DNA of 46,283 bases from a virus: IMG/VR virus record IMGVR_UViG_3300027969_000155, positions 1-46,283 of that record; one strand, 5' to 3'. The position numbers and the translations under genes were made by a program. The notes under the pieces are model-generated. The model saw nothing but the letters and a program-made list of their open reading frames with translations. It made no database searches and had not been told where the DNA came from. This document shows positions 1,109 through 14,626 of the stretch, in pieces. Within the stretch, counting starts at the first letter, position 1; each line of letters opens with the position of its first letter.

Positions 1109-1678
1109 TTACCAGACCCAAGATACACAAGTATATCGAGTGCCGCTAGTTACTTCTAACACGCCATGGGGATACATAAAATTGCTTGGAAAAATTAATA
1201 TAGAACCCTGCGGAATTTGTATTTTTTCCGAGTTCCACATAATAAAATCCCCACCTGTATAGCTATTGTTTAGCCCTGCTACTACTGATAATATAGGTAT
1301 TCCGCTCGGCTGGCCGTTAAAAATGCTTTTAACATGGTCACAATGTAGAGCCATTTTAGTATCAACGTTGTATTTGTTAAATCTTAAATGCGAAAACCCT
1401 TCCCACCCATTAAACCATGGACTACATTTTGAAAAATCTTTAGTAATATATTGTCCAATTGCTAGCTGAAATATTTTTTGTAATTCAAAAAATTGTGGAA
1501 TAACATCATATGTTACATATAGTTCTTTTTCTTTAGAATGAACACCCCTAGTAGGATCATAGAATGTGTGTTCTTCCCAGTTACACGCAGTCAAACTATT
1601 AACTATAGAGTTACATAAGTCTAAGTCAATGAAGTTATTATATACTTTTACGTAGTCTTTAATATTAGTAGGTATCAT
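1109..1678 (-). CDS. 2OG-Fe(II) oxygenase, prolyl-4-hydroxylase-like
   Basis: A 189-residue protein with the complete metal and cosubstrate set of the prolyl-4-hydroxylase/PKHD branch: H112 and D114 (HCDH), distal H171 (FPSNFMYPHGV) and R181 (GTRYTCVSW) ten residues later for 2-oxoglutarate. The strand YTGGDFIMW and the turn PQGSILIFPS before the distal His are typical of a double-stranded beta-helix core. It probably hydroxylates a peptide or small molecule using Fe(II), O2 and 2-oxoglutarate; the substrate is unknown. Its ATG overlaps the stop of the upstream oxygenase gene (ATGA, 1675-1678), so the two are co-translated. A late promoter for the next gene begins just after its stop. Confidence 0.9.
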   Translation of the reverse strand: MIPTNIKDYVKVYNNFIDLDLCNSIVNSLTACNWEEHTFYDPTRGVHSKEKELYVTYDVIPQFFELQKIFQLAIGQYITKDFSKCSPWFNGWEGFSHLRFNKYNVDTKMALHCDHVKSIFNGQPSGIPILSVVAGLNNSYTGGDFIMWNSEKIQIPQGSILIFPSNFMYPHGVLEVTSGTRYTCVSWVW

Positions 1679-2256
1679 GATAATACAAAATTCATAGAAA
1701 TACTGATCCTAATATCATTACTCATATTTAGTTCAACCATGTGTAAAAGGTTGGATCTAAATATAGTTACAGACCCCTCTTGGGCCGGAAATGCGTAAGT
1801 TTTATAGGAAGTGTAATTGTTACTATTTAATGGTAACGGGAACATGTCAGTGTCTGCTTCAAAACTTTTAAAAACTAAATTACCACAATTTTTTGGAGTT
1901 TTGAGATAGTACACAGCACTAAAATGATTGCCAGCATGAATATGATACTCCTGAAATGCCCCAGGAGGTGCTACATTGATCCAACTGTCAGTGACTTTAA
2001 CAGTTTCAGTTTTTGCACCAAATTCTGTAGCAACAATAATTACTTGTTTTTTAATATCGTCAATTAATTCTGCAAAGATTGAGTCATTGATCATGTCATA
2101 CTTGTTTAATGTAGTAAATGTATTACATCTCCAATTGCTAGTTGGAGGTAAAGTGTTTGCTAATTCTATAGCTTTATCAATATACAGTTGGTTTATCGCC
2201 GCAGTACGAGGAATACTCTCTGTATGAATAATAGTTGGAAACAAGTGATGGATCAT
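1675..2256 (-). CDS. 2OG-Fe(II) oxygenase, TIGR02466 / 2OG-FeII_Oxy_5 type
   Basis: A 193-residue protein. It opens with LFPTII, like the FPTP start typical of the family. The core strand SWINVAPPGAFQEYHIHAG gives H105 and H107 as metal ligands, followed by FSAVYYLKTP, distal H172 and R183 in DIRISISMNF. This family uses HxH rather than the classic HxD. A longer frame reaches a TTG at 2292, but the ATG at 2254-2256 fits the family's usual N-terminus and is preferred; its ribosome site is weak. It is transcribed divergently from the oxygenase at 2337 and overlaps the next - strand oxygenase by 4 bp. Substrate unknown. Confidence 0.88.
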   Translation of the reverse strand: MIHHLFPTIIHTESIPRTAAINQLYIDKAIELANTLPPTSNWRCNTFTTLNKYDMINDSIFAELIDDIKKQVIIVATEFGAKTETVKVTDSWINVAPPGAFQEYHIHAGNHFSAVYYLKTPKNCGNLVFKSFEADTDMFPLPLNSNNYTSYKTYAFPAQEGSVTIFRSNLLHMVELNMSNDIRISISMNFVLS

Positions 2257-2336
2257 GTTACTATATATCACAAATAAACTAGGGCAACACAATTTCAGAT
2301 AACTATTGTATAAGCAATATTCAAGAAGGATTAATT
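2257..2336. promoter_or_regulatory. Divergent intergenic region between two oxygenase genes
   Basis: These 80 bp separate oppositely transcribed oxygenase genes, so promoters for both are expected here. On the - strand, a TTGCCC and a TATAGT spaced 16 nt apart resemble a sigma70 -35/-10 pair directly before the ATG at 2256. On the + strand there is a GTATAAGC and a good ribosome site GAAGGA (2325-2330), 6 nt before the ATG at 2337. I see no ATAAATA late-type core here. The promoter calls are weak pattern matches. Confidence 0.35.
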
Positions 2337-2987
2337 ATGGACGTACTAAGAGAAGTTACACCACTATTTGTAACGCCGATTGCAACGGCTAGAATTACAG
2401 GTTTTGATTTCCAAAAATATGCAGATGCTGTACTCAGCACTCTATCTACAGAACAACTTACTGATTTGTCAAAAATTGGTATAACATCGACCACTGATGA
2501 TTTACATCTTCATCCAGCATTTAAAGAGTTAGTTGAGTTAATTGATGAAGAAGCTAGAGATTTTTTTGCAACAGAATTGGGTATAAGTCAAGATAGTTTA
2601 GAGATGAGTTGCATGTGGTCAAACGTTCAACTTGACGGTTGTAGACACCATGCCCACATACATCCAAATAGCTTCTATTCAGGAGTTTTATATTTAGACA
2701 TTCCACCCGGTGATTTTGTAGACCCGGGTGTGTTATTCTTTGTTGATCCACGGCCTGCTAGACTAACACAACAGGCAGACCACAATAAATTTACAGTATT
2801 CACTGATCGATCGTATGGATTCAAACCACAAACTGGACTGCTATTGCTATTCCCAAGTTGGTTAGAGCACGGAACTGATGTTTGTAAAATTGGTCCGGGA
2901 AAACGTAGAATATCATTAAGTTTTAATTACTCATTAACAAAAGCATCTGGTCGTACTATGAAATTAAATTTTCATCAGGCAGTATAA
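2337..2987 (+). CDS. 2OG-Fe(II) oxygenase, 2OG-FeII_Oxy_5 type
   Basis: A 216-residue protein starting TPLFVTPI, the family's N-terminal FxTP element. The core segment HHAHIHPNSFYSGVLYLDIP supplies H107 and H109 as likely Fe(II) ligands, LFPSWLEHG supplies the distal H178, and RRISLSFN supplies R190/R191 for 2-oxoglutarate. This closely follows the family pattern H-x-HP-x-S-x-x-SG-V-x-Y. It is the first gene of the long + strand run, with ribosome site GAAGGA 6 nt before the ATG. The next gene begins 1 nt after its stop. Hydroxylase-type chemistry is inferred from family; substrate unknown. Confidence 0.9.
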   Translation: MDVLREVTPLFVTPIATARITGFDFQKYADAVLSTLSTEQLTDLSKIGITSTTDDLHLHPAFKELVELIDEEARDFFATELGISQDSLEMSCMWSNVQLDGCRHHAHIHPNSFYSGVLYLDIPPGDFVDPGVLFFVDPRPARLTQQADHNKFTVFTDRSYGFKPQTGLLLLFPSWLEHGTDVCKIGPGKRRISLSFNYSLTKASGRTMKLNFHQAV

Positions 2988-2988
2988 A

Positions 2989-3627
2989 ATGTCAGCTATT
3001 CATTTAGAAAATTTTGGTTATAGCTCAGGAACACTTCCTGAGTCGTTATTTGAAAAATTAAAGTTAGAAGCATTGATTGCTAAACAGGAACGATATGCCC
3101 ATAAAAATCTAATGAATGAAATGGTTTCGGGGCTCAGTGGGCGCGGAGTTCCTAAGCACTATTATATTAAAGATAATTTACAAGAATTAAATGCGTTTGC
3201 ATTGAATTTTTTTGTCAGTAACTATATGATAGATTTTCCACTATATTTAAAAACGTTTAGATCGTTATCACATAGTGTTCCAATTGAAGCACACGAGCCT
3301 TGGTTTAATATTCAAGAAAAACACGAATTTATTCCTGCACATACACATGACGGTATTGCATCGTATGTAATATGGATCGATATTCCTTATGATATCAAGG
3401 AAGAATTATCTGCAGGAGAACATGCTTCGACTTTTGCATTTATATATTCAACTGTTACTGGGGTACCGAGCAAAAAAACACTCCAAGTTGACAAATCATA
3501 CGAGGGTAAGATTATAATGTTTCCATCAGCGTTACCACATACTGTCTATCCGTTTTATACTTCTGATGATTGTAGAATCTCTATCTCAGGAAATATACGA
3601 TTTAATACAAGTAATAGTGGAATATAA
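2989..3627 (+). CDS. 2OG-Fe(II) oxygenase (HxH type)
   Basis: A 212-residue protein. The strand PWFNIQEKHEFIPAHTHDG gives H118 and H120 (or D121) as metal ligands, then SYVIWIDIP. The distal H184 lies in FPSALPHTV and R196 in DDCRISISGN. The overall layout is that of a cupin-like 2OG oxygenase, with about 65 residues between the proximal and distal ligands. It is more divergent at the N-terminus than its neighbours and lacks the FPTP opening. It starts 1 nt after the previous stop and shares one base with the next start (TAATG at 3625-3629), indicating translational coupling. Confidence 0.85.
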   Translation: MSAIHLENFGYSSGTLPESLFEKLKLEALIAKQERYAHKNLMNEMVSGLSGRGVPKHYYIKDNLQELNAFALNFFVSNYMIDFPLYLKTFRSLSHSVPIEAHEPWFNIQEKHEFIPAHTHDGIASYVIWIDIPYDIKEELSAGEHASTFAFIYSTVTGVPSKKTLQVDKSYEGKIIMFPSALPHTVYPFYTSDDCRISISGNIRFNTSNSGI

Positions 3628-4214
3628 TGCCCGTTGAATATTGGTTCCCTACCCCCGTATACTATGCAACTGTAAATAATTTTGAGTTAATTCAAAATGA
3701 ATTATCAACTGCATTAGACACTTTAAATCAAGAAAACGCATTTGCTAAAGCAACTCATTGGGGCAATGTTACGCATAGTGTTAGCGATCCAACATTTAAA
3801 GATAACGTAATTGATCGACTTAATTTAACAACATTCAGAGACGAAATATATTTGCATGTTATTGAATACATGCAGGGATTAAATTCTCAATGTCTAGCAC
3901 GATTTAGAATAGCATCTTCTTGGTTTACCAATACTAAACCGGGACAATATACTCGTATACATTGTCACGGATATGCTGATATATCAGGTGTATATTATTT
4001 TAAAACAAACACCAAAGACGGATCATTAACGTTTGCATCGCCTAATTCAAGTTTAGCAACTACTATATTTGCAAAACTAACAGAAACTGTTAGCTATGAA
4101 CCGGCAGAAGGTAAAATTATACTGTTTCCAGGATGGCTTAATCACAGTGTGAGCGAAAACGATACAGCTGATACCAGGATTAGTATATCATTTAATATAT
4201 TTTTTGAAAGATAA
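3627..4214 (+). CDS. 2OG-Fe(II) oxygenase, 2OG-FeII_Oxy_5 / TIGR02466 type
   Basis: A 195-residue protein with the family opening YWFPTPVYYATV. The core SSWFTNTKPGQYTRIHCHG carries H112 and H114, followed by ISGVYYFKT. The distal H173 is in FPGWLNHSV and the 2-oxoglutarate Arg is R184 in DTRISISFN. All expected ligands are present, so an active dioxygenase is likely. Start and stop are tightly coupled to neighbours: the ATG overlaps the upstream TAA by one base, and the next small gene starts 1 nt after this stop. Substrate not predictable. Confidence 0.9.
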   Translation: MPVEYWFPTPVYYATVNNFELIQNELSTALDTLNQENAFAKATHWGNVTHSVSDPTFKDNVIDRLNLTTFRDEIYLHVIEYMQGLNSQCLARFRIASSWFTNTKPGQYTRIHCHGYADISGVYYFKTNTKDGSLTFASPNSSLATTIFAKLTETVSYEPAEGKIILFPGWLNHSVSENDTADTRISISFNIFFER

Positions 4215-4215
4215 T

Positions 4216-4443
4216 ATGTTTAGTATTAGTATCATTAATGAGGGTAATCAAGTGTCAGAAAAGTTTGTAAAAGCAAACTCTTTTGTTTTAGAAAAACATT
4301 CAAATAAATTTACCAAAAATGCTGATAAATCTCAACTACTAAAAGACTTATGGCTACTTGAGTACAAAGCCATTTTGAATAACACTTCTATAGAATTTGA
4401 TAAAGATATAGATATGACTATGTTTTTATTAAGGTGGAGTTAG
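4216..4443 (+). CDS. Small hypothetical protein (75 aa)
   Basis: I do not recognise this protein. It is short and charged (MFSISIINEG, then Lys/Asn-rich segments, ending MTMFLLRWS), with no signal peptide, membrane segment or cysteine motif. An upstream in-frame TTG at 4204 overlaps the previous gene; the ATG at 4216-4218 is preferred. It is placed in the oxygenase run directly after a TIGR02466-type gene and ends convergently with the - strand gene at 4440, overlapping it by 4 bp. A stem-loop spans its stop codon. The coding call rests on position, coupling and frame. Confidence 0.5.
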   Translation: MFSISIINEGNQVSEKFVKANSFVLEKHSNKFTKNADKSQLLKDLWLLEYKAILNNTSIEFDKDIDMTMFLLRWS

Positions 4444-4449
4444 TTCACC
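4433..4449. terminator. Stem-loop across convergent stop codons
   Basis: GGTGGA (4433-4438) pairs with TTCACC (4444-4449), with one G-T wobble and a 5-nt loop that contains most of the TAG stop. It lies exactly where the + strand 75-aa gene and the - strand 112-aa gene converge. No strong U-run follows on either side, so it may protect 3' ends or attenuate rather than terminate fully. Confidence 0.4.
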
Positions 4450-4778
4450 CAAACAGTATTTGTTGGTACTATAATACCTAATTGTTTGGCTCGGTTTTTT
4501 GCATTTTCACTAGCATCTCCGCCTGAAAATATTTCAATTCCCGCTAATTGATCTAAAAATAAATCATGGGTTATAATAAAAAGTTCAACGTACGGACTCC
4601 ATGCCGCATATATTCCAACGTTTCCTGGTTGATAGTAAATTTGCTCCCATGTATCTATATCACTAAATGATGGCAATCTAGTTGTGAGCCATTCTTCTTT
4701 GAGAGGCAAGCTCTGTGTTTGGTATGCAGTATCATCGGCCCAGGGCTGGATATCACTAGTTTTTTTAAAAATTGGCAT
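4440..4778 (-). CDS. Conserved phage protein with YAAW-PY motif (paralogue of 14209-14625)
   Basis: A 112-residue protein, antisense within the + strand oxygenase run. Its pattern of LPLKEEW, DTWEQIYYQPGNVGIYAAWSPYVELFII and a C-terminal AKQLGIIVPTNTVWV is repeated in order in the protein at 14209-14625 (LPPKVEW, LWEKI, GVYAAWDPYGEFYIL, DQLGI, TWV), so the two are paralogues. I recall similar small proteins in marine T4-like phages but know of no assigned function. No catalytic motif is evident. A late-type motif AATAAATA at 4783-4790 lies only 4 nt before the ATG, so transcription may begin at or very near the start codon. Confidence 0.75.
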   Translation of the reverse strand: MPIFKKTSDIQPWADDTAYQTQSLPLKEEWLTTRLPSFSDIDTWEQIYYQPGNVGIYAAWSPYVELFIITHDLFLDQLAGIEIFSGGDASENAKNRAKQLGIIVPTNTVWVN

Positions 4779-4782
4779 GTGA

Positions 4783-4790
4783 TATTTATT
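4783..4790 (-). promoter_or_regulatory. Late promoter-like motif AATAAATA close to start codon
   Basis: The - strand reads AATAAATATCACATG. The core matches the T4 late motif, but the ATG at 4776-4778 follows within 5 nt, implying a leaderless or nearly leaderless transcript if it is used. The motif could also be chance in AT-rich DNA. Confidence 0.4.
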
Positions 4791-4832
4791 CAGGACTAAG
4801 TGTCTTGCTTTTTAAAAATCTTAAATAGTAGT

Positions 4833-5348
4833 ATGCAATTGTTACCAACTGAAAAATTTAAAGTTATTGATAATTTTTTACCCAATGAAGAATTTATCCC
4901 TATTCGTAATACTATGATAGGAGATAACTTTCCTTGGTATTTTCAGCCGTTTGTAGCTGATAACACTGACAAAGATAAAACATTGCCGGCGTTTTATTTT
5001 GTTCATACGTTTTATAGTGCTGAATATCAATCACAAAGTCATCAGTTTGAGTTAATTAAACCGTTATTGGATCGTTTGAATATTAATAAGTTGATACGTA
5101 TGAAAAGCAATTTGTATCCAAATCTTGGTAAAGACATAGTAAATGAGCCGCATGTGGATTTTCCGTTTGACCATGCCGGTGCAGTATTTTATATAAATTC
5201 TAATAACGGATTTACCGTACTTGATGACGGTACTAAAGTTGCATCGGTGGAGAATAGATTGTTAATTTTTAATTCTAGTTTGCCGCATCAAAGTACCCAC
5301 TGTACTGATCAAAAAGTAAGAATCAATATTAATTTAAATTATTTTTAA
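4833..5348 (+). CDS. 2OG-Fe(II) oxygenase (HxD type)
   Basis: A 171-residue protein from the ATG at 4833-4835; a GTG at 4800 would add 11 residues of unlikely sequence. Motifs: NEPHVDFPFDHAG with H107 and D109, the distal H152 in FNSSLPHQS, and R163 in KVRININLNYF. The N-terminal part FKVIDNFLPNEEF resembles the start of prolyl-4-hydroxylase-like phage proteins. The beta-helix core is compact: 45 residues separate D109 from H152. It follows the - strand YAAW gene and precedes a DUF6065-like gene by 1 nt, so it continues the + strand operon. Confidence 0.85.
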   Translation: MQLLPTEKFKVIDNFLPNEEFIPIRNTMIGDNFPWYFQPFVADNTDKDKTLPAFYFVHTFYSAEYQSQSHQFELIKPLLDRLNINKLIRMKSNLYPNLGKDIVNEPHVDFPFDHAGAVFYINSNNGFTVLDDGTKVASVENRLLIFNSSLPHQSTHCTDQKVRININLNYF

Positions 5349-5349
5349 A

Positions 5350-6051
5350 ATGCCTAAAATAGACTTTATACCCAATAGTGAATTAACATCGGCAATTATT
5401 GATCCGCCTGTACCAGCTTCTAAAATAGTACCAGAGTGGTTTAAACGGATGACCACAGCAATTAATAAAAATAATGCTCATAGGAATCCAGATAACACTT
5501 CTAATAAAACAGTAAAAGCGTGTGTACCATTTATCGACGCATTGACTACTGGATACATGATTACGCTTCCCTGCGATGTTGTGTTTGTGGATCCTGCAAA
5601 GTACGGAGTTCGTGTATTATGGGACGTATCATGGCAAGTGCTAGAGGTGCATTCGCCAGGGCAAGCGGCTGGTATGCCAGTCATTGACGGCTACGGTGAT
5701 GAAATTTTAAAATGGACTGCAATGTGGTCTATTAAGCCCCCTAACGGGTATAGCTTGTTGTTTACTCATCCTCTTAATCAATTTGACTTACCATTCTTTA
5801 CACTTAGTGGTGTAGTAGATTCAGATGCATACGATGCTCCTGTAAGTTTACCTTTTTTAGTTAAGAATAATTTCATGGGTAAGATACCAAAAGGCACTCC
5901 CATTGCGCAGGTCATCCCCATTAAGCGAGAGTCATGGACATCGTCTATTAAAAAATTCAATATTAAGAAAAGTTTTTCAATAGAAAGTTTGCGTACAGTT
6001 ATGGATAGTTCATATCGTCTAAGATGGTGGAATAAAAAAAATTATAATTAA
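5350..6051 (+). CDS. DUF6065-like uncharacterised protein
   Basis: A 233-residue protein. The order of motifs PEWFKRM, CVPFIDALTTGYMITLP, KPPNGYSLLFTHPLNQFDLPF, LSGVVDSD, LPFLVKNN and IPKGTPIAQVIPIKRESW resembles, from memory, the DUF6065 family (PPG-x-N-L, L-x-GVVETDW, F-x-KGEPF-x-x-IFP). The repeated strand/turn pattern suggests an all-beta jelly-roll core. There are no oxygenase ligands and no known catalytic residues. A second, more diverged copy of the same layout is at 7290-7991. Co-occurrence with oxygenases and halogenases suggests a partner or substrate-handling role, but this is inference; the function of the family is unknown to me. Confidence 0.65.
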   Translation: MPKIDFIPNSELTSAIIDPPVPASKIVPEWFKRMTTAINKNNAHRNPDNTSNKTVKACVPFIDALTTGYMITLPCDVVFVDPAKYGVRVLWDVSWQVLEVHSPGQAAGMPVIDGYGDEILKWTAMWSIKPPNGYSLLFTHPLNQFDLPFFTLSGVVDSDAYDAPVSLPFLVKNNFMGKIPKGTPIAQVIPIKRESWTSSIKKFNIKKSFSIESLRTVMDSSYRLRWWNKKNYN

Positions 6052-6062
6052 GGATAGATAGT

Positions 6063-6608
6063 ATGAAATTTGATTGGTATCATTTTAAAAAATGTTATAC
6101 TGAAGAGCAATGTCGTGAAATATCGGATTGTATTAAAAATTCTCCTATTGCGGGGGAAGACTCTCCTGCCCACGGTGTTACAAAAACAGCTATAGTACGC
6201 CGCACAAATTGGCAATATGTAAAACCTCTATTGACTAAGTTAGAAGATTTAGTGCATTATGTCAACAAGGAACATTTTGGTTTTGACATTTATAAACTGT
6301 CTGATTACGATACAATAAATCATAACATATATAATGACTTCAATGACGGGCAATACGGCTGGCACAAAGATGCGGCCTTGGGAGAAATGTACGATTTAAA
6401 ACTAACAGTGATAGTGAATATTTCAACCACTCCGTACAAAGGCGGAAACTTTGAAATCTATACTAATAAACCCTGTCACATTGAGGAACTAGATTATCCC
6501 GGATCTGTTTTAATATTTCCAGCTTTTCAAAATCACAGGGTGAATCCAGTTACCCAGGGCACTAGAGAAACGTTATCTTTTTGGATGCCGGGACCTCTTT
6601 TCAAATAA
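6063..6608 (+). CDS. 2OG-Fe(II) oxygenase, PKHD / prolyl-4-hydroxylase-like
   Basis: A 181-residue protein with a textbook PKHD-type core. QYGWHKDAAL gives H101 and D103, PYKGGNFEIY is the following strand, DYPGSVLIFPAFQNHRVNPV gives H158, and QGTRETLSFWMPGP gives R168, ten residues after the distal His. The N-terminal CYTEEQCREI helix is also usual for this group. Of all the oxygenases here it looks most like cellular PKHD hydroxylases. Ribosome site AAGGAT lies about 10 nt before the ATG. The substrate is unknown; peptide or amino-acid hydroxylation is the family norm. Confidence 0.93.
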   Translation: MKFDWYHFKKCYTEEQCREISDCIKNSPIAGEDSPAHGVTKTAIVRRTNWQYVKPLLTKLEDLVHYVNKEHFGFDIYKLSDYDTINHNIYNDFNDGQYGWHKDAALGEMYDLKLTVIVNISTTPYKGGNFEIYTNKPCHIEELDYPGSVLIFPAFQNHRVNPVTQGTRETLSFWMPGPLFK

Positions 6609-6612
6609 TATT

Positions 6613-7293
6613 ATGGAACTAACAGAAAACAAGTATCTTGTTGTTAAAAATGCTGTATCCGAAGACGTGTGTAAGATACTGGCAAAAGAATTTAAATTGT
6701 TAGAGGACATGGCTCACAAATTAAAATTGCCACGTGGATTTGGTACAGATGATCCAGTATCAGCCACTGATAGTTTTCCATATAACGACGGACTAATTAA
6801 AAATTCTTTTTCATGGTACAGTCCTCTTGGATTCGAAGCGTTATCCGAAGTGATTATAAAGGCTGAAGTAGAAAATGCCGTGGGAGCAGAAGTATATCCC
6901 ACATATTCATATGCAAGAATTTATTACAATGGCGCTTCTATGATAAAACACACTGACAGAGCCGCTAGCGACTTTGTAGTATCTTGTTGTATATCTATAG
7001 ATGACACGGCTGCTCCTTGGCCTATAGGGTTTATAGATAATAATAACACTCCTGTTTTAGTGGAACAAGAGCCGGGCGATATTGTCATTTACAAAGGAAA
7101 TGAAATAGCACATTGGAGGGACACATATTCCGGCACTGAACAAATACAATGTTTTCTTTCATATGTTTTAAAGAATGGCCCAAAGGCAGGGCTACGATAT
7201 GACACAAGGCCTGCTCTTGGTATGCCCTGGAATACTCGTGCGTTGACTAATATTGAGCAAGATAAAATATTTTTAGGAAACAACACTAAATGA
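6613..7293 (+). CDS. 2OG-Fe(II) oxygenase-like protein with altered 2OG-binding position
   Basis: A 226-residue protein. Metal ligands are clear: H113 and D115 in MIKHTDRAASD, and H167 in KGNEIAHWRD after the turn EPGDIVIYKG. Ten residues after the distal His, where sister proteins have Arg or Lys, there is Gln (EQIQCFLSYV, Q177). The cosubstrate carboxylate might instead be held by R169, two residues after the ligand. It may thus represent a sub-branch with a different binding geometry or a changed cosubstrate. A C-terminal extension of about 40 residues follows the core. The stop overlaps the next ATG (ATGA at 7290-7293). Confidence 0.8.
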   Translation: MELTENKYLVVKNAVSEDVCKILAKEFKLLEDMAHKLKLPRGFGTDDPVSATDSFPYNDGLIKNSFSWYSPLGFEALSEVIIKAEVENAVGAEVYPTYSYARIYYNGASMIKHTDRAASDFVVSCCISIDDTAAPWPIGFIDNNNTPVLVEQEPGDIVIYKGNEIAHWRDTYSGTEQIQCFLSYVLKNGPKAGLRYDTRPALGMPWNTRALTNIEQDKIFLGNNTK

Positions 7294-7991
7294 TTAATGT
7301 ATACTGGGCCTGCATAGAAAACGAATGGATGAGAGCATCTGCTCCTGAATCTGTAGCGTCTTTATTTTATAAAGATCGAAAATTTGATAAAAATTTACCA
7401 GATGTAAATATGCATCACTGTCCGTCTTTTAATCAACATATGGAAAATATGTTTGCTCTAAGATCAATTTATTCTTATAAATTTGAAATAAGAGATAATA
7501 ATGTTGGAACTGGTGATTACGATCAGCAGTTTTTTGAAAGGCATGTTAATATTAAATCTATTGAAAAGAAACTGTTCTCGTTTCAGCAATCGTTTATTTT
7601 CTTTACTGATGAGGAATCGTTGCCTGTTACTATGAGCTTACCTCCGTATTTTGAAGATAATAACATTACAGATCGATGTGTTGTTATACCAGGAGAATTA
7701 AATATTGGAAAATGGTTTAGAAATACAGATCTTGCTTTTTATCTTAAAAGAAATTATAATGAATTTTGTATTGAAGAAGGTGAAATTTATTGCTATATGA
7801 AATTTCACACAGATCAAAAAATTAACTTTATACAATATAGGCAAACAGATAAACTAAACAATTTGTTATTAGATGTTGTTAGATCAAAAAACAATAAGAA
7901 AAAAGTGTTTTCAATAGAAAAATTTTATTCATTGTTTAATACAAAAAAAATGATACTGAAAGAGATCAAGGAAAATTTATTAAATGAATGA
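7290..7991 (+). CDS. Uncharacterised protein, probably distant paralogue of the DUF6065-like gene
   Basis: A 233-residue protein, the same length as the product of 5350-6051. Corresponding features can be lined up: CPSFNQHMENM with CVPFIDALTTG, PVTMSLPPYFED with GYMITLPCDVVF, DLAFYLKRNYNEFCIEEGEIYCYMKF with LPFLVKNNFMGKIPKGTPIAQVIPI, then a Lys-rich C-terminal helix in both. Identity is low, so homology is probable rather than proven. It is more Lys/Asn/Phe-rich than its neighbours. No catalytic motif is seen. It overlaps both neighbouring oxygenase genes (4 bp upstream, 8 bp downstream), which argues for co-translation and a shared role. Confidence 0.6.
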   Translation: MINVYWACIENEWMRASAPESVASLFYKDRKFDKNLPDVNMHHCPSFNQHMENMFALRSIYSYKFEIRDNNVGTGDYDQQFFERHVNIKSIEKKLFSFQQSFIFFTDEESLPVTMSLPPYFEDNNITDRCVVIPGELNIGKWFRNTDLAFYLKRNYNEFCIEEGEIYCYMKFHTDQKINFIQYRQTDKLNNLLLDVVRSKNNKKKVFSIEKFYSLFNTKKMILKEIKENLLNE

Positions 7992-8532
7992 GCTAGTGCC
8001 ATTTAGTACAAGTATTTGGACTGATAATTTAATATTCGATGTTTACGGTGATATTATTGAGATTAAAAAATCAGTTGGTACTAGGCTGGTTAGCAATATG
8101 GGAGGCTGGCAAAGTCCTAGCTATCAGGCAGCCGACTATGATTTTGTAAAACCTTTGATAAACGAAATAAGTCAACGGTTAGTCGGCATATATCATCAGT
8201 ACGGTATTGCACACACTCCTATATTATTAAATTATTGGTTTAATGTAAATCAACAACACGATTATAACATACTACATCGTCATCCAAGATCTAGATTTTC
8301 AGCAGTGTATTATGTTAAAGCTCCCGAAGAGTGTGGCAACATAGTTTTTAAAAGGCCAGATTTACTATGCGATTATATAGACGCAGATATTGCCAATCAT
8401 CGAAATAGTCAATACTATTATGTTAAATCTACAGAACATAAATTAGTTATATTTCCTGCGTATCTTGAGCATCAAGTAGAACAAAATCAGTCTACACAAG
8501 ATAGAGTTAGTATAGCATTTAATTTTGATTAG
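7984..8532 (+). CDS. 2OG-Fe(II) oxygenase, 2OG-FeII_Oxy_5 type
   Basis: A 182-residue protein. The opening is VPFSTSIW, a variant of FPTPIW. Core: LNYWFNVNQQHDYNILHRHPRS with H98 and H100, FSAVYYVKAPEECGNIVF, FPAYLEHQVEQN with H163, and DRVSIAFNFD with R174. It is closest in style to the - strand oxygenase at 1675-2256 (both have FSAVYYxKxPxxCGNxVFK), suggesting a duplication inside the island. The start codon lies within the end of the upstream gene (ATGAATGA). Confidence 0.9.
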   Translation: MNELVPFSTSIWTDNLIFDVYGDIIEIKKSVGTRLVSNMGGWQSPSYQAADYDFVKPLINEISQRLVGIYHQYGIAHTPILLNYWFNVNQQHDYNILHRHPRSRFSAVYYVKAPEECGNIVFKRPDLLCDYIDADIANHRNSQYYYVKSTEHKLVIFPAYLEHQVEQNQSTQDRVSIAFNFD

Positions 8533-8535
8533 ATT

Positions 8536-9216
8536 ATGACTATACAATTAACAGATTTAATATTCCGTAAAGCTAACGCTCTTTCTCAAGACGAGTGTGA
8601 ATTTCTTATTGCTGAACACAAAAAATTAAATGATCAATTAGAATTAGAACATTGTCCTGATGCTAACACTGGAGTAGACACATGGAGCAGTTATCAACGA
8701 GTTATATTAAAAACAAACACTGAAGCTCGCAATTTAGTTTTTCAAAAAACTGAATCAATGATTAATGACTACATGGATTATTTAGATGGCTTTGGGGCTT
8801 TTCATAGATTAGTTCGTGAAAGTATGCTTTATAGTCATATGTACAGATTATTAAGATACTTGCCCGGAGAAAAGATTCATCCTCACACTGATCACGATCC
8901 GTTTATCTATGGTAGTTGTACATTTAATTTAAATGATACCTACACAGGCGGAGATTTTGTATTCTGGAAGGGCAAACATCGTGTTAAGTTGAAGGCAGGT
9001 GAAGCTATGATTTGGCCTGCAGATTATTTCTGGGTACACGAAGTTGAACCAGTAATTACAGGGGTTAGGTATAGTACTAATAGTTTTTTAATGAGTATAC
9101 CTGACCCAGTTAAACAGTTGACTATGGAAAACATCGCAAATTTAAAAAATACGCACGATTATAAAGTATTCGATAGTATTGAAAAATATAATATAAAAAA
9201 TAATCCCTTGGAGTAA
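8536..9216 (+). CDS. 2OG-Fe(II) oxygenase, prolyl-4-hydroxylase-like
   Basis: A 226-residue protein. Motifs: YRLLRYLPGEKIHPHTDHD with H117 and D119, TYTGGDFVFWKG, LKAGEAMIWPADYFWVHEV with H168, and GVRYSTNSFLMS with R178, again ten residues past the distal His. The N-terminal LSQDECEFLIAEHKKLNDQ helix is typical for hydroxylases of this type. It directly precedes the first halogenase gene with 2 nt between stop and start; the halogenase has a GGAG ribosome site inside this gene's 3' end. The pairing may mean the two act on the same substrate, but that is inference. Confidence 0.9.
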   Translation: MTIQLTDLIFRKANALSQDECEFLIAEHKKLNDQLELEHCPDANTGVDTWSSYQRVILKTNTEARNLVFQKTESMINDYMDYLDGFGAFHRLVRESMLYSHMYRLLRYLPGEKIHPHTDHDPFIYGSCTFNLNDTYTGGDFVFWKGKHRVKLKAGEAMIWPADYFWVHEVEPVITGVRYSTNSFLMSIPDPVKQLTMENIANLKNTHDYKVFDSIEKYNIKNNPLE

Positions 9217-9218
9217 TT

Positions 9219-10823
9219 ATGTTAAATGTAAAAAATATTGTAATTGTAGGTGGTGGATCAGCAGGGTGGATGAGTGCGGCATTTTTAATAAAAACATTCC
9301 CTAACATGAACATCACTGTTATTGAAAGCCCAGACCATCCAACGGTTGGTGTGGGAGAATCTACCTTTGTATCAATTGCACAGTTTAGAGATTATTTAGG
9401 TATCAAAGACGAGGACTTCATGTCTGCCTGCGATGCATCTTATAAAATGAGCGTGAAATTTACAGACTTTTACGATGTTGGCGGTCACTCGTTTCATTAC
9501 CCGTTTAGGACACCCGACATAGAAGGTACACAAAACGGTCTAGCTGATTGGTTAGAAATTAAAGCATGTTATCCAGATTTAGACGTTAATGACTTTGCTA
9601 GGTCGTACTTTCCGTCTGCGGCATTATACGAAAATAATAAATTTGTAGGTTCCCATCAAGGTGAGTTTGGTAACTGGAATAAACAAACCGATGTGTCCTA
9701 TCACTTTGATGCTACTAAATTTGGATTGTATCTTAAAAATAACTACTGTTTGCATCGAGGTGTTAAGTTGTTATCAACAACTGTGCAAGATATATCATCA
9801 GACGATACCGGAATTACCGGATTGACATTAACAAACGGTGATATTATTACGGCCGATTTGTATGTTGATTGCACTGGGTTCAAGAGTATGTTACTGAGCG
9901 GCGAATTAAAAGAGCCGTTTACACCTTATTCTGATATATTATTAAATGATAGTGCCTGGGCCGTGCGAGTTCCGTATATTGATAAAGAACGCGAGTTGGA
10001 GCCATTTACTAATAGCACAGCCTTAAACAATGGTTGGGCATGGAACATTCCAACATGGAGTCGTATTGGAACTGGATACGTGTATTCTAGTAAATTTATT
10101 AGCAAAGAAGATGCTTTAGAAGAATTTAAAAACTATCTGTGTTCTGATAAGATGATAATCCCACGCTCTCGAGAGCAGGTCGATGCATTGGAGTTTCAAC
10201 ATATACCAATGCGTATAGGTTTACATAAACGCACATGGGTTAAGAACTGTGTTGCGTTAGGACTTGCCGCAGGGTTCATTGAGCCATTAGAAGGCAATGG
10301 TTTGATGTCCGTTATGGTGTTTGTACAATACCTAGCTAAATCTCTATTAAAAGGCAAGGTAACAAAACTTGATATAGATACATATAACTCAGTGACTTCT
10401 AGTCTATTTAAAGACTTGGCAGAATTTATAGCTATGCATTATGCATTTAGCGTAAGAGATGACACCCCTTACTGGAGGGCAATATCTGAAATAACGTTTT
10501 CAGCAGACCTAGGATGTGGTGATGCCTATCCATTTTCCAAGGCGGCGCCTGCAAGTTTTGGGGCAACATTTTTAGATTTCCAGTTTAGAAAAATGTTAAA
10601 CAGATTAACTCCCCCAGAAAACGGAGTTACTTACATTTCTGTTGGTATGAATCATTCTGTGTTTAACCGAGTGGATCAACAACATGCGATTAATGGCAGA
10701 GACATTAGGCCTTATATTGATAGCTTAATAAGAACTTTTAATATAAAGAAAGCCAACTGGGAGAAAGCTGCCAGTAATGCTCCTACACTATACAAATATC
10801 TTTTAGAGAATATTTACAAATGA
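9219..10823 (+). CDS. Flavin-dependent tryptophan halogenase-like enzyme (copy 1)
   Basis: A 534-residue protein. It has the FAD-binding GGGSAG (11-16), the GVGEST loop (44-49), K76 in SYKMSVKFTDFY matching the essential Lys (K79 of PrnA, recalled numbering), the halogenase signature WxWxIP as GWAWNIP (272-278), and FIEPLEGNG (353-361) with E358 at the position of PrnA E346. The residue after it is Gly, where PrnA and the third halogenase here have Ser. Such enzymes make HOX from FADH2, O2 and halide and pass it via Lys to the substrate; a flavin reductase must come from the host. Marine cyanophage halogenases are known (VirX1 of Syn10). Substrate and halide preference are unknown. Confidence 0.93.
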   Translation: MLNVKNIVIVGGGSAGWMSAAFLIKTFPNMNITVIESPDHPTVGVGESTFVSIAQFRDYLGIKDEDFMSACDASYKMSVKFTDFYDVGGHSFHYPFRTPDIEGTQNGLADWLEIKACYPDLDVNDFARSYFPSAALYENNKFVGSHQGEFGNWNKQTDVSYHFDATKFGLYLKNNYCLHRGVKLLSTTVQDISSDDTGITGLTLTNGDIITADLYVDCTGFKSMLLSGELKEPFTPYSDILLNDSAWAVRVPYIDKERELEPFTNSTALNNGWAWNIPTWSRIGTGYVYSSKFISKEDALEEFKNYLCSDKMIIPRSREQVDALEFQHIPMRIGLHKRTWVKNCVALGLAAGFIEPLEGNGLMSVMVFVQYLAKSLLKGKVTKLDIDTYNSVTSSLFKDLAEFIAMHYAFSVRDDTPYWRAISEITFSADLGCGDAYPFSKAAPASFGATFLDFQFRKMLNRLTPPENGVTYISVGMNHSVFNRVDQQHAINGRDIRPYIDSLIRTFNIKKANWEKAASNAPTLYKYLLENIYK

Positions 10824-11446
10824 AGCCATCAAAACAATATCCAGGTTCTATATACGTATATGACAATGTATGGGATGATCCGCAATCTACTATTGATTTA
10901 ATAGAATCTGAGTGTGATAGTAATACAATGCATTGGGAAAAAGCTGGTGTAAATAATAGCCACTTTGGTTCTAATATTGATAATTCTTATCAAGGAATTA
11001 GTGAAAGAACTAATTTGCATACTGGTCTAACTTACTTTGCTGAAAAAGGTAATCGTGTAGCGCAACAGCTACATAATAAGGTTTGTAATTTATTGGTAGA
11101 TGTTGCTGAGTCATATATGTATGATCATAGATTATTAGGAGCAGTGCCTTACTCCCATGAATTTTATTCAGTTTTAAAATATTCAGATAGTCAAAAATTT
11201 GATGCTCATGTTGACGGCATGCCGGGTAGTAATCGATTTATAAGTTGTATCCTGTACTTAAATGATAATTATGTAGGCGGAGAACTAGAATTCATAAATT
11301 ATGATCTAAAATTAAAGATGCCTGCAGGATCTCTTGTTATTTTTCCTTCTGGTTTTTCACATGCCCATAGAGCTTATCCTGTAACTAGCGGAACAAAGTA
11401 TGCTATAGTTACTTGGTTGTATTATTTGAATCAGGATACAAAATGA
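10820..11446 (+). CDS. 2OG-Fe(II) oxygenase, prolyl-4-hydroxylase-like (Lys at 2OG site)
   Basis: A 208-residue protein between two halogenase-family genes, overlapping both by 4 bp (ATGA). Ligands are H130 and D132 in FDAHVDGMPG and H183 in FPSGFSHAHRAY. The 2-oxoglutarate residue is K193 in SGTKYAIVTWLYY, as in collagen-type prolyl-4-hydroxylases, where Lys replaces the more common Arg. YVGGELEF and MPAGSLVIFPSG complete the core. Tight overlap with both halogenase genes suggests co-expression in fixed ratio. Confidence 0.9.
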   Translation: MKPSKQYPGSIYVYDNVWDDPQSTIDLIESECDSNTMHWEKAGVNNSHFGSNIDNSYQGISERTNLHTGLTYFAEKGNRVAQQLHNKVCNLLVDVAESYMYDHRLLGAVPYSHEFYSVLKYSDSQKFDAHVDGMPGSNRFISCILYLNDNYVGGELEFINYDLKLKMPAGSLVIFPSGFSHAHRAYPVTSGTKYAIVTWLYYLNQDTK

Positions 11447-12648
11447 AAATTGCTGTCATTGGAGTTGGTACTGCGGGTCTTACAAGTTTATCTCATTGCC
11501 TAGCATGGTTGCCAAAAGAATACACAGTGTATTCAATATACGATCCTTCTACGCCAATATTGGGTATAGGTGAGAGCACTGGTACTGCTATTCCGCAAAC
11601 ACTATATCAAGGTGCTCGATTTACATTACTTAGAGATGCAGGAGAACTAGATGCGACTGTTAAACACGGAGTAAAGTATACTGGATGGCGAGAGCACGAT
11701 TTTTATAGTAATATTGTTCCGCCGCATCAGGCCATGCATTTTAATAACTTTAAATTAAAAGAATTTTGTTTTAAAAGATTTCAAGAAATACATGGTAATA
11801 GATTCCAAGAAATACATACAAAGATATTAGATATTGATCAGGATGACAATTCGGCCATTGTAGTTACTGATACTGAACAATTAAAATTTGACTATATCAT
11901 AGATTGCAGGGGCTATCCGGATGACTATACAGATTACAACTTATCTAACTATATTCCAGTTAATCATTGCCTAGTAAATATGGTTCCAGAGCCCGGTAAT
12001 TGGAATTATACCTATCATATAGCACATAGAAATGGTTGGATGTTTGGGATTCCGTTGCAAACTAGACAGGGGTTTGGCTATCTGTATAATGACACTATTA
12101 CAGAAAAAGAAGATGCCATTGATGATATAGCAGAAAGGTTTAAAACAAAACCCCAAGATTTAAATCTTAGAGAATTTAAATTTAAAAATTATTCTGCTAA
12201 GAAATTTATCGACGGTCGAATTATAAAGAATGGAAACCGTGCGGTATTTTTTGAACCAATTGAAGCACTATCTGGATGGTTTTATGATAGGGTCATGCGT
12301 TATTTCATAGATAGAGTATTATTCAATGCCAGAGAGGATTACTTAAATCAACTGTTAACTGACACTGCAAACGACTATGAAAGTTTTATTTGTTACATCT
12401 ATCACGGAGGGTCGGTTTACAATTCTAAATTTTGGGATATTACTGTAGAAAAGTCCTGTGAAAAATTAAAAAATGACAACCGATTTAACGAATTTATTAG
12501 TCAGTTAAAGGATATATACAAGTCCAAGGAACAACCGCCTATATCAACAAACACAGCTATAGGCGTATTTGCAATAAGTAATTGGGAAGATTTTGATAAA
12601 AATTTAGGCTATCATTATTTTACCCCAACAACACAATCTAAATGGTAA
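11443..12648 (+). CDS. Short divergent halogenase-like flavoprotein (copy 2)
   Basis: A 401-residue protein. The ATG at 11443 overlaps the previous stop; a longer frame from 11413 lies inside the upstream gene and is rejected. Family marks are present but altered: GVGTAG (7-12), GIGEST (41-46), K74 in TVKHGVKYTGW, GWMFGIP (198-204) in place of WxWxIP, and FFEPIEALSGW (269-279) in place of EPLESxG. It is about 120-130 residues shorter than the flanking copies. It may be a true halogenase of a small-substrate branch, or an FAD monooxygenase or partner. A 24-bp direct duplication gives RFQEIH twice around residues 112-125. Confidence 0.75.
   Translation: MKIAVIGVGTAGLTSLSHCLAWLPKEYTVYSIYDPSTPILGIGESTGTAIPQTLYQGARFTLLRDAGELDATVKHGVKYTGWREHDFYSNIVPPHQAMHFNNFKLKEFCFKRFQEIHGNRFQEIHTKILDIDQDDNSAIVVTDTEQLKFDYIIDCRGYPDDYTDYNLSNYIPVNHCLVNMVPEPGNWNYTYHIAHRNGWMFGIPLQTRQGFGYLYNDTITEKEDAIDDIAERFKTKPQDLNLREFKFKNYSAKKFIDGRIIKNGNRAVFFEPIEALSGWFYDRVMRYFIDRVLFNAREDYLNQLLTDTANDYESFICYIYHGGSVYNSKFWDITVEKSCEKLKNDNRFNEFISQLKDIYKSKEQPPISTNTAIGVFAISNWEDFDKNLGYHYFTPTTQSKW
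11776..11817 (+). repeat. 24-bp-period direct duplication inside halogenase-like gene
   Basis: Positions 11776-11793 and 11800-11817 carry the same 18-bp sequence with one mismatch. In-frame, this doubles the peptide RFQEIH. It is probably a recent slippage event in a surface loop. Confidence 0.7.
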
Positions 12649-12655
12649 ACATATT

Positions 12656-14218
12656 ATGAAAATAGTTATAGTAGGTGGCGGGTCAGCTGGCTGGATGAGC
12701 GCCGCAATGTTAATAAAAGAATATCCAACACACGATGTTACTGTTATCGAAAGCCCAGATATTCCAATTGTTGGTGTTGGTGAAAGTACTATTAATGGTC
12801 TAAGACAGTTTTGCAATTATTTAGAGATAGATGAGTCTCACTTTTTAAAGTTTACTGATGGATCTTATAAGCTATCAATTAAATTTACTGATTTTTATAA
12901 AAAAGGTGACGGAGGCTTTTTATATCCTTTTGGTTTTGCACAGACCAAAGGAACGCTGTTTGGCCTTAACGATTGGCTTATTAAAAAATATGCTTATCCA
13001 GAAACTCCGGTTACTGATTTTGCGGAATGTTTCTCGCCGCAAGCTGTGATGTGCAAAAATAATAAGTTTTTTAAGAATCCCAATTGTTCTATAATGAGTG
13101 AATATGATTCTGATCTAGGCCTGGCGTATCATTTTGATGCTGTTAAATTTGGGGCTTGGTTACGAGACGAGTATTCTGTGCCAAGGGGTGTTAAGCATAT
13201 TGCCGATACTGTTACTACTATAGATTCTAGTGAATCTAATATAACAGAGTTAACACTTGGTAATGGTCAAAAAATTACAGCAGATTTATTTGTTGACTGT
13301 ACTGGATTTAAGAGTCTATTAATGGCGCAGACATTGAAAGAACCTTTTATCAGTTATTCTGATATGCTACCTAATAATAAGGCTTGGGCAACGCAATTGC
13401 CGTATAAAGAAAAAGAACGGGAACTAGAACCATTTACCAATTGCACTGCTATCAACAACGGCTGGGCATGGAATATTCCGTTGTGGAGTCGTATTGGAAC
13501 TGGATATGTATATTCCGATAAATTTATCAGCAAAGAAGATGCGTTAGAAGAATTTAAACAATATTTGCAGTCGGATAAAATGGTTGTGCCGCGCACTAAA
13601 GAAGAAGTTGATACTCTAAAATTCAAAGAACTTACTATGCGTGTTGGCATTCATAAAAGAACATGGGTCGGAAACTGTGTAGCTATCGGACTTGCCGCGG
13701 GTTTTATTGAACCTTTGGAAAGTAACGGATTGTATACCATACATCAGTTCTTATTTGAATTAATCCGTGCGCTATCTAGAGGGGCGCCTACTGAGTGGGA
13801 CAAGAGTGCATATAACTATGCTACTTTCAAACAATTTAATGAATTCGCTGAATTTGTAGCAATTCACTATTCTTTAAGTAGACGCGACGATACTGAATAC
13901 TGGCGGGCATCGATGCGTAAAGATTATTTTTCTACAGCTAAAAAGTCACCGTCTACATTTGATCAAATAATAGATAACAGAGCATTTACGCATGTATCTT
14001 CAACATCTGGCGGATACTCTTGGATCCAAGCAGGTATGAATTATTTTCCATTAGATCATATTGATGCTAGATTAGGAGAGATGGAAACACCTGCTGACTA
14101 TAAAACATTTTATAGTAATCAAATTAAGTATTTAGAAGATAGAAAAAAATACTGGGAATCGATAATTGATTCTCAGCCTACACTATTTGAATATTTAAGA
14201 GATAATGTTTATGCGTAG
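12656..14218 (+). CDS. Flavin-dependent tryptophan halogenase-like enzyme (copy 3)
   Basis: A 520-residue paralogue of copy 1; long blocks match, including the region around WNIPxWSRIGTGYVYS. It has GGGSAG (7-12), GVGEST (40-45), K72 in YKLSIKFTDFY, GWAWNIP (269-275) and IEPLESNG with E355 and S356. The catalytic Lys, Glu and Ser recalled from PrnA are therefore all present, so this copy looks the most canonical. The C-terminal third, where substrate-binding helices lie, differs most from copy 1, hinting at a different substrate or site. It is the last gene of the + strand run. Its stop overlaps the convergent - strand gene by 10 bp, and a strong stem-loop begins at the stop. Confidence 0.94.
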   Translation: MKIVIVGGGSAGWMSAAMLIKEYPTHDVTVIESPDIPIVGVGESTINGLRQFCNYLEIDESHFLKFTDGSYKLSIKFTDFYKKGDGGFLYPFGFAQTKGTLFGLNDWLIKKYAYPETPVTDFAECFSPQAVMCKNNKFFKNPNCSIMSEYDSDLGLAYHFDAVKFGAWLRDEYSVPRGVKHIADTVTTIDSSESNITELTLGNGQKITADLFVDCTGFKSLLMAQTLKEPFISYSDMLPNNKAWATQLPYKEKERELEPFTNCTAINNGWAWNIPLWSRIGTGYVYSDKFISKEDALEEFKQYLQSDKMVVPRTKEEVDTLKFKELTMRVGIHKRTWVGNCVAIGLAAGFIEPLESNGLYTIHQFLFELIRALSRGAPTEWDKSAYNYATFKQFNEFAEFVAIHYSLSRRDDTEYWRASMRKDYFSTAKKSPSTFDQIIDNRAFTHVSSTSGGYSWIQAGMNYFPLDHIDARLGEMETPADYKTFYSNQIKYLEDRKKYWESIIDSQPTLFEYLRDNVYA

Positions 14219-14625
14219 AGCCACATCTTTTCTGGCTCTACCCAAGTCTTATAAAACTTAGCATAGCGCAATATTCCCAATTGATCCATTCGTTGGATTA
14301 ATCTTTGCTGAGCTCCGGCACCGTAATAGTATTCAAATTCAAATAATCGAGGGACTATCTCAAACCCTCGATTTTCTCTATGAAAGTTTGTTTCTCTACG
14401 AAGTATATAAAATTCTCCGTATGGATCCCATGCCGCATAAACTCCATACTCCCAAGGCTCGCATATTTTTTCCCAAAGATACACGTCTTCAATATGCATT
14501 TCTCGCTCATAATCCCACTCTACCTTTGGTGGAAGGACAACAGTATCCGAATCAAGCCAGTTAGGATCAAAATATTCTCCTGACCCTGTTAAAATATGTT
14601 CTGTTTTTAAAAAACTGGCTATCAT
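14209..14625 (-). CDS. Conserved phage protein with YAAW-PY motif (paralogue of 4440-4778)
   Basis: A 138-residue protein from the ATG at 14623-14625; a TTG at 14643 lies in the upstream gene and is rejected. It shares with the 4440-4778 product the sequence of motifs LPPKVEW, LWEKI, GVYAAWDPYGEFYIL, a Tyr-rich linker, MDQLGI and a C-terminal TWV. It begins 1 nt after the polyglycine protein's stop and so is likely transcribed with the fibre genes. With the other copy it brackets most of the oxygenase/halogenase run. No catalytic signature; function unknown. It is possibly a small virion or assembly protein, given its place at the end of the fibre operon (weak inference). Confidence 0.75.
   Translation of the reverse strand: MIASFLKTEHILTGSGEYFDPNWLDSDTVVLPPKVEWDYEREMHIEDVYLWEKICEPWEYGVYAAWDPYGEFYILRRETNFHRENRGFEIVPRLFEFEYYYGAGAQQRLIQRMDQLGILRYAKFYKTWVEPEKMWLYA
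14216..14240. terminator. Stem-loop at convergent gene ends (TAGAGCCA/TGGCTCTA)
   Basis: An 8-bp perfect stem, 14216-14223 with 14233-14240, and a 9-nt loop. It begins with the TAG stop of the third halogenase and lies inside the last codons of the - strand gene. There is no U-tract after it on either strand, so a bidirectional 3'-end-protecting or weak terminator role is most likely. It is the stronger of two such stem-loops at convergent stops in the window. Confidence 0.6.
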
Positions 14626-14626
14626 A

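Follow-up and report, generated by a model that had tools for sequence, protein, structure and literature searches.

A fibre-adjacent oxygenase and halogenase island in a viral genome record: a possible cassette for adhesin tailoring

Since 2010, lists of unexplained auxiliary genes of cyanophages have included 2-oxoglutarate (2OG) oxygenases and halogenases. In cyanomyoviruses, PrnA and more than one 2OG gene have been reported (PMC3037559), phage S-SZBM1 carries nine 2OG gene copies (PMC9146016), and Iyer et al. (2021) described in S-SSM6a a cluster of halogenase, 2OG and carbamoyltransferase genes, for which capsule decoration or a secondary metabolite was proposed (PMC7824862). The active site of the halogenase VirX1 is unusually large and open (PMC8407142), and its native substrate is not stated in the accessible literature that we searched. 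Here we analyse an island of oxygenase and halogenase-family genes that makes up the left 14 kb of IMG/VR virus record IMGVR_UViG_3300027969_000155, the whole 46,283 bases of which are called the window (the 'linear' class in IMG/VR often denotes a fragment).

The closest described system is that of Syn10 and syn9. Over the stretch compared, the gp42 protein of syn9 is identical to the chain of VirX1 in PDB 6qgm, the same locus is present in Syn10, and VirX1 belongs to the fibre-adjacent island of that phage. In Syn10, about 12 kb directly after the fibre genes accommodate two halogenases, a relative of DUF6065 and ten genes of the oxygenase superfamily: four are phrog_81-type, one is phrog_61-type, two are phrog_274, and phrog_2954, JmjC_2 and DUF6445 are represented once each. 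In both phages gp36 (35% glycine) and two more glycine-rich proteins precede the halogenases, and the syn9 annotation is tail fibre assembly. The sequence-only reading of the window had supposed a gene density beyond known cases; this was mistaken, as Syn10 and syn9 each pack two halogenases and some ten oxygenase-superfamily genes into a 12-kb block and further clusters have been published (PMC7824862). The island is thus a large member of an already known arrangement, and it shares with Syn10 a VirX1-type halogenase, several 2OG families and DUF6065 adjoining fibre genes.

The right part of the window is occupied by minus-strand giant fibre genes and baseplate-wedge-type proteins (phrog_13163 and relatives). 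Because a 1174-residue window protein has its best matches in T4-like Synechococcus phages, the virus is a T4-like, Kyanoviridae-related myovirus. Between 1109 and 11446 lie eleven 2OG-Fe(II) oxygenase genes of four families (genes are named here by their first coordinate); two full tryptophan-halogenase-family genes (9219 and 12656) and one short one (11443) complete the island, together with two non-oxygenases, DUF6065 and phrog_17480. The open reading frames (ORFs), order, strands and coordinates read at the outset all proved correct, as did the observation that most neighbours overlap or abut: intergenic gaps run mostly from -11 to +11 bp, with a sole exception of 356 bp that houses the reverse-strand gene 4440-4778. 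Two oxygenase genes (1109 and 1675) lie on the minus strand and diverge from the rest. The island as a whole converges on the fibre genes, and its end touches a small minus-strand gene, SML, which itself overlaps the end of a glycine-rich gene. The features are as follows.

1109..1678, minus strand: 2OG-Fe(II) oxygenase, phrog_61/PF13640 (H112xD114...H171, R181)
1675..2292, minus strand: member of the PF13759/phrog_81 2OG oxygenase family (HxH...H...R; likely ATG start near 2256)
2337..2987, plus strand: PF13759/phrog_81 oxygenase (H107xH109...H178, R191)
2989..3627, plus strand: PF13759/phrog_81 oxygenase, without a same-position counterpart in the relative L005
3627..4214, plus strand: PF13759/phrog_81 oxygenase, by HMM and motif
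4440..4778, minus strand: SML, small protein, paralogue of 14209-14643 with conserved W, P and E positions
4800..5348, plus strand: phrog_274 oxygenase, labelled 'DNA endonuclease V' in PHROGs (HxD...H...R)
5350..6051, plus strand: non-2OG protein DUF6065/phrog_7084, fold predicted as dUTPase-like
6063..6608, plus strand: phrog_61/PF13640 oxygenase (H101xD103...H158, R168)
6613..7293, plus strand: phrog_2954 oxygenase, labelled 'ferrochelatase' (H113xD115...H167, invariant Arg residues)
7290..7991, plus strand: phrog_17480, recurrent cassette member, by PHROG HMM
7984..8532, plus strand: PF13759/phrog_81 oxygenase, by HMM and motif
8536..9216, plus strand: phrog_61/PF13640 oxygenase, by HMM and motif
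9219..10823, plus strand: full flavin-dependent halogenase homologue (GGGSAG, WAWNIP, K76, E358)
10820..11446, plus strand: phrog_61/PF13640 oxygenase with remote PiuC/PKHD and prolyl-4-hydroxylase similarity
11443..12648, plus strand: short halogenase-family flavoenzyme, 401 residues (K74 and E274 kept; GVGTAG; WMFGIP replaces WxWxIP)
12656..14218, plus strand: full flavin-dependent halogenase homologue, VirX1-like (GGGSAG, WAWNIP, K72, E355)
14209..14643, minus strand: SML, small protein and cassette-junction marker, overlapping the end of the glycine-rich gene
14627..15571, minus strand: glycine-rich adhesin-like protein, 314 residues, 35% Gly, putative substrate

The linkage of such cassettes to an adhesin-like gene and SML is of particular interest. 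A search with SML alone returned 38 loci, and in almost all of them a glycine-rich ORF of about 300 residues is followed by SML, adjoined by a variable set of genes (halogenase, 2OG, DUF6065, phrog_17480) that is mostly convergent; isolate phages yielded no SML. Removal of near-duplicates and of contigs shared with the halogenase search left 22 SML loci, kinship being handled by near-duplicate removal only. A cassette gene lies within 5 kb of SML in 19 of these, and cassette genes per kb fall from 0.555 through 0.162 and 0.045 to 0.026 in successive 2.5-kb bins, a density about 20-fold higher beside SML than at 7.5-10 kb. Most of the cassette genes (63 of 75) are on the strand opposite to SML, and a glycine-rich gene occurs within 5 kb of SML at all 20 SML loci that had room on both sides. 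Around halogenases, glycine-rich ORFs number 1.0 per 10 kb within 1.5 kb, versus 0.25 per 10 kb at 8-10 kb. At two loci, L099 (7058-8692) and L100 (8349-9968), a gene recognised by eye from its sequence, which we take to be a NodU/CmcH-type carbamoyltransferase-like gene, separates SML from the glycine-rich ORF, occupying the place taken elsewhere by halogenase and 2OG genes. In the window itself the adhesin-like gene has its high glycine content at a fibre-tip position, near the end of the fibre operon; its product has no PDB sequence match, the outcome expected of low-complexity sequence.

The enzymes were identified by Pfam, PHROGs and NCBIfam hidden Markov model (HMM) scans, together with family alignments and motif columns. 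Since the E-values of single island genes mostly fall between 1e-9 and 1e-109, chance is, on this sequence evidence, excluded as the source of the enzyme set taken whole. All eleven oxygenases held up in the Pfam and PHROG scans and motif columns: five belong to phrog_81/PF13759, four to phrog_61/PF13640, and one each to phrog_274 and phrog_2954. The further claim that nearly all have a complete metal-ligand set stood for six of them (1109, 4800, 6063, 6613, 8536 and 10820), which carry an HxD...H facial triad and a distal R/K; it needs qualifying for the five PF13759 proteins, in which HxD/E...H is absent and HxH...H...Arg is found instead, their membership of PF13759 itself being clear. HxH...H plus R is kept in 98% of 62 aligned PF13759 homologues, so that this pattern is a trait of the family and not decay, the metal and cofactor use of PF13759 being putative. 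A three-histidine metal site is conceivable for PF13759, nearly all phage members examined having HxH...H.

The protein of gene 6613 drew zero Pfam oxygenase matches and no close relatives in the viral-contig search, but by profile comparison it, and with it phrog_2954, shares ancestry with the phrog_61 set (hhalign probability 94%, E 9e-8). Because HxD...H...R is found in both phrog_2954 and phrog_274, and phrog_2954 aligns with the phrog_61 set, the PHROGs names 'ferrochelatase' and 'DNA endonuclease V' look like misnomers; both names recur across cyanophage records. Identity between the oxygenases is low, at about 20-35% for most pairs (two higher values are probably short gapped alignments), which points to old, diverged paralogues, and recent tandem duplication was rejected for the same reason.

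The three halogenase-family genes, two full and one short as first read, were assigned to PF04820/phrog_2928. The full proteins, of 520 and 534 residues, are 51% identical to each other and both contain the GxGxxG motif for flavin adenine dinucleotide (FAD) and WxWxIP. Because WMFGIP stands where WxWxIP is expected, the short 11443 protein, which retains the FAD motif as GVGTAG, is filed only as a halogenase-family relative. Equivalents of the catalytic Lys and Glu (K79 and E346 in PrnA) are found in all three, as K76/E358, K72/E355 and K74/E274, those of 12656 being placed by alignment to PyrH and VirX1. Among solved structures, VirX1 (PDB 6qgm) is the best match of 12656, with an E-value of 4e-98 over residues 3-519.

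In the closest relatives, L005 and L007, each full halogenase has its own counterpart at 72-84% identity. Conservation of the island's order, which the sequence-only reading had proposed to look for, was found in L005 and L006, where most genes follow one another as in the window. With counterparts assigned by position and best match, these two loci have none for genes 2989, 6613, 7984, 8536 and 11443, and have one DUF6065 and one PF13759-type gene as extras; gain and loss between the window and L005 thus leave about five enzyme genes specific to the window and two specific to L005. L007 reads halogenase, phrog_61, a different halogenase-family gene, halogenase, SML. All island orthologues compared with L005 (whose halogenase is 84% identical) gave a pN/pS of 0.14-0.48, and the island genes are therefore under purifying selection. 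With eleven oxygenases and three halogenases, the window has the largest oxygenase count among the loci compared, most of which cover 10 kb of flank, so that their counts are lower bounds. L009, L010 and L011 each have five halogenase-family genes and five 2OG oxygenases within 14-19 kb.

The reading that we favour, although we hold it tentatively and at slightly less than even odds, is that the island is a fibre-linked cassette tailoring a receptor-binding adhesin or another distal fibre protein. We favour it because the constant neighbour is of virion type, no scaffold-making gene was recognised, some families resemble protein hydroxylases (JmjC_2 in Syn10, remote PiuC and prolyl-4-hydroxylase similarity in the window) and the active site of VirX1 is open. 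The phage would make the glycine-rich receptor-binding adhesin (14627-15571) with SML as a small partner. The oxygenases would add hydroxyl groups to chosen side chains and the flavin halogenases would attach halogens to aromatic ones, in the adhesin or in a further distal fibre protein, drawing on FADH2, halide, 2OG, Fe(II) and O2 of the host; no flavin reductase gene was recognised in the window. Differing enzyme sets could then give differing surface chemistry, and with it tuned receptor binding or tip stability. Enzymatic activity, substrate, timing and effect on adsorption are what we infer in this scheme; observed directly were the identity of the families, their catalytic residues, the tight packing, the purifying selection, an order conserved despite gene turnover and the recurrent adhesin/SML linkage. 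The earlier proposal of a dedicated tailoring pathway gains support from the order kept in relatives, purifying selection and tight packing, and that of virion proteins as substrates has become more plausible through the recurrent adhesin linkage, the adhesin itself being a putative substrate.

Several observations weigh against adhesin tailoring. Genetic linkage does not prove a substrate, and the linkage of SML to glycine-rich genes is partly shared by descent. A glycine-rich gene was detected within 5 kb of only 10 of 18 well-flanked halogenase loci and at 9 of 39 DUF6065 loci, most of which therefore lack one. In S-B64 and S-MS29, halogenases and some 2OG genes lie away from fibres. The sugar genes of S-SSM7, in the same slot, fit a sugar substrate. 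Finally, the Trp/Tyr content of the adhesins showed no difference with or without a halogenase at the locus; for His, Pro and Cys against halogenase presence, p is about 0.018, uncorrected over 13 tests.

A less likely explanation, which nevertheless deserves serious weight, is that the enzymes synthesise or modify a small molecule or a host surface polysaccharide (halogenated, hydroxylated or carbamoylated) for superinfection exclusion or competition. Natural-product pathways commonly use PF04820 and 2OG enzymes, which counts in its favour. So do the carbamoyltransferase-like ORF in the shared slot of L099 and L100, the annotated carbamoyltransferase, heptose-kinase, phosphoheptose-isomerase and nucleotide-sugar epimerase genes in the fibre-adjacent cluster of S-SSM7, and the published proposal for the S-SSM6a cluster of halogenase, 2OG oxygenases and carbamoyl transferases (PMC7824862). 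However, Pfam and PHROG scans of the window island recognised no scaffold-building, glycosyltransferase, transport or sugar gene, and no carbamoyl transferase or sugar/HemK-type gene; what stays constant beside the cassettes is a glycine-rich gene of virion type rather than a biosynthetic core gene, and the S-SSM7 cluster too sits between a tail fibre gene and gp13. The clear gain and loss of genes between the window and L005 could instead reflect a plastic region beside the fibres that gathers horizontally acquired genes with no shared substrate. We consider this improbable, as the same few families recur in the slot across distant phages and the remaining gene order is kept.

DUF6065 bears on a third alternative. 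The best match of its structural model (mean pLDDT 84) is to dUTPases, at E 1.1e-4 and with a TM-score of 0.73 by target length but 0.40 by query length, and a dUTPase-like core is predicted. The family is common to bacterial phages and some 49 records of haloarchaeal tailed viruses, with at least 590 relatives in viral contigs; its 13 matches in cellular genomes are all contigs of metagenome-assembled genomes, three with 2OG genes, and are uninformative on substrate. A suggestive pattern led us to consider DUF6065 and phrog_17480 as one family, which was unsupported (hhalign probability 4%). The predicted fold would suit oxygenases acting on nucleic acid or nucleotides, in repair or base modification, the older view of cyanophage 2OG genes: phage 2OG genes close to uvsX/uvsY/uvsW have been suggested to serve DNA repair (cited in PMC9146016), and some S-B64 2OG genes are located there. 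This is very improbable for the window, where the island lies by the fibres, scans of it found no repair, replication or nucleotide-metabolism gene, DUF6065 occurs beside adhesin operons too, and the halogenases would be unaccounted for. Least probable of all is that the oxygenases mainly turn over 2-oxoglutarate and so alter host nitrogen sensing, following the proposal that cyanophages modulate 2OG levels (PMC3037559), as this leaves eleven diverged enzymes (about 20-35% identity in most pairs), the halogenases and the adhesin linkage unexplained.

Just outside the island are a NUDIX hydrolase gene (413-847; PF00293, E 2e-14) and a gene for 79 residues of no recognised family (839-1078), both kept in L005. 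The T4 late-promoter core TATAAATA occurs 0 times on both strands of the window, against a mean of 7.6 in shuffles, and CTAAATA is not enriched there over chance.

If adhesin tailoring is true, phage host recognition would rely on post-translational chemistry that is invisible in gene sequence. A single genetic partner for both enzyme classes turns the vague question of 'auxiliary metabolism' into a direct test on virions of the cultured phages Syn10 and syn9. More broadly, and more doubtfully, bacterial and perhaps archaeal tailed viruses could hydroxylate and halogenate their own adhesins via swappable cassettes, diversifying host recognition beyond the encoded amino acids, which would also be the native role of VirX1. 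In the open literature that we searched, we found no paper that characterises such a cassette experimentally as a whole, and the recurrent junction of adhesin, SML and cassette, its echo in archaeal viruses and the placement of VirX1 appear to be new.

In haloarchaeal Hafunaviridae (HJTV-3) and in Hardygib1 virus, an operon runs from baseplate and tail fibre genes to an annotated, glycine-rich adhesin and two small genes, and DUF6065 faces it in convergent orientation, at the same kind of place as in the window; a halogenase or 2OG gene is not annotated in that region. The 8-12-gene cluster of S-SSM6a and S-SSM7 also combines a halogenase with several 2OG genes, there between tail-fibre genes and gp13, and differs from the window in its carbamoyltransferases, its sugar genes and its far fewer oxygenases. 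Upstream of this cluster in S-SSM7 (L227:3745-6138) is a tandem array of three adhesin-like ORFs whose products have a high Cys, Trp and Gly content and a CxPGCCCxWTVP motif. Smaller fibre-adjacent versions, with the halogenase after fibre and glycine-rich genes, are present in S-RIM44, S-SZBM1, Sf-FP1 and Sf-CH11, the last having glycine-rich ORFs on both flanks. Like VirX1, 12656 carries both the FAD and WxWxIP motifs and has the catalytic Lys and Glu residues; it is about 36% identical to the syn9/Syn10 copy. The islands of Syn10 and syn9 are closest, with two VirX1-type halogenases, a DUF6065 relative and phrog_81, phrog_61, phrog_274 and phrog_2954 oxygenases beside fibre genes. Syn10 differs in being co-directional with its fibres and in its JmjC_2 and DUF6445 oxygenases, whereas the window island is convergent and adds SML, phrog_17480, a short third halogenase and further copies of phrog_61.

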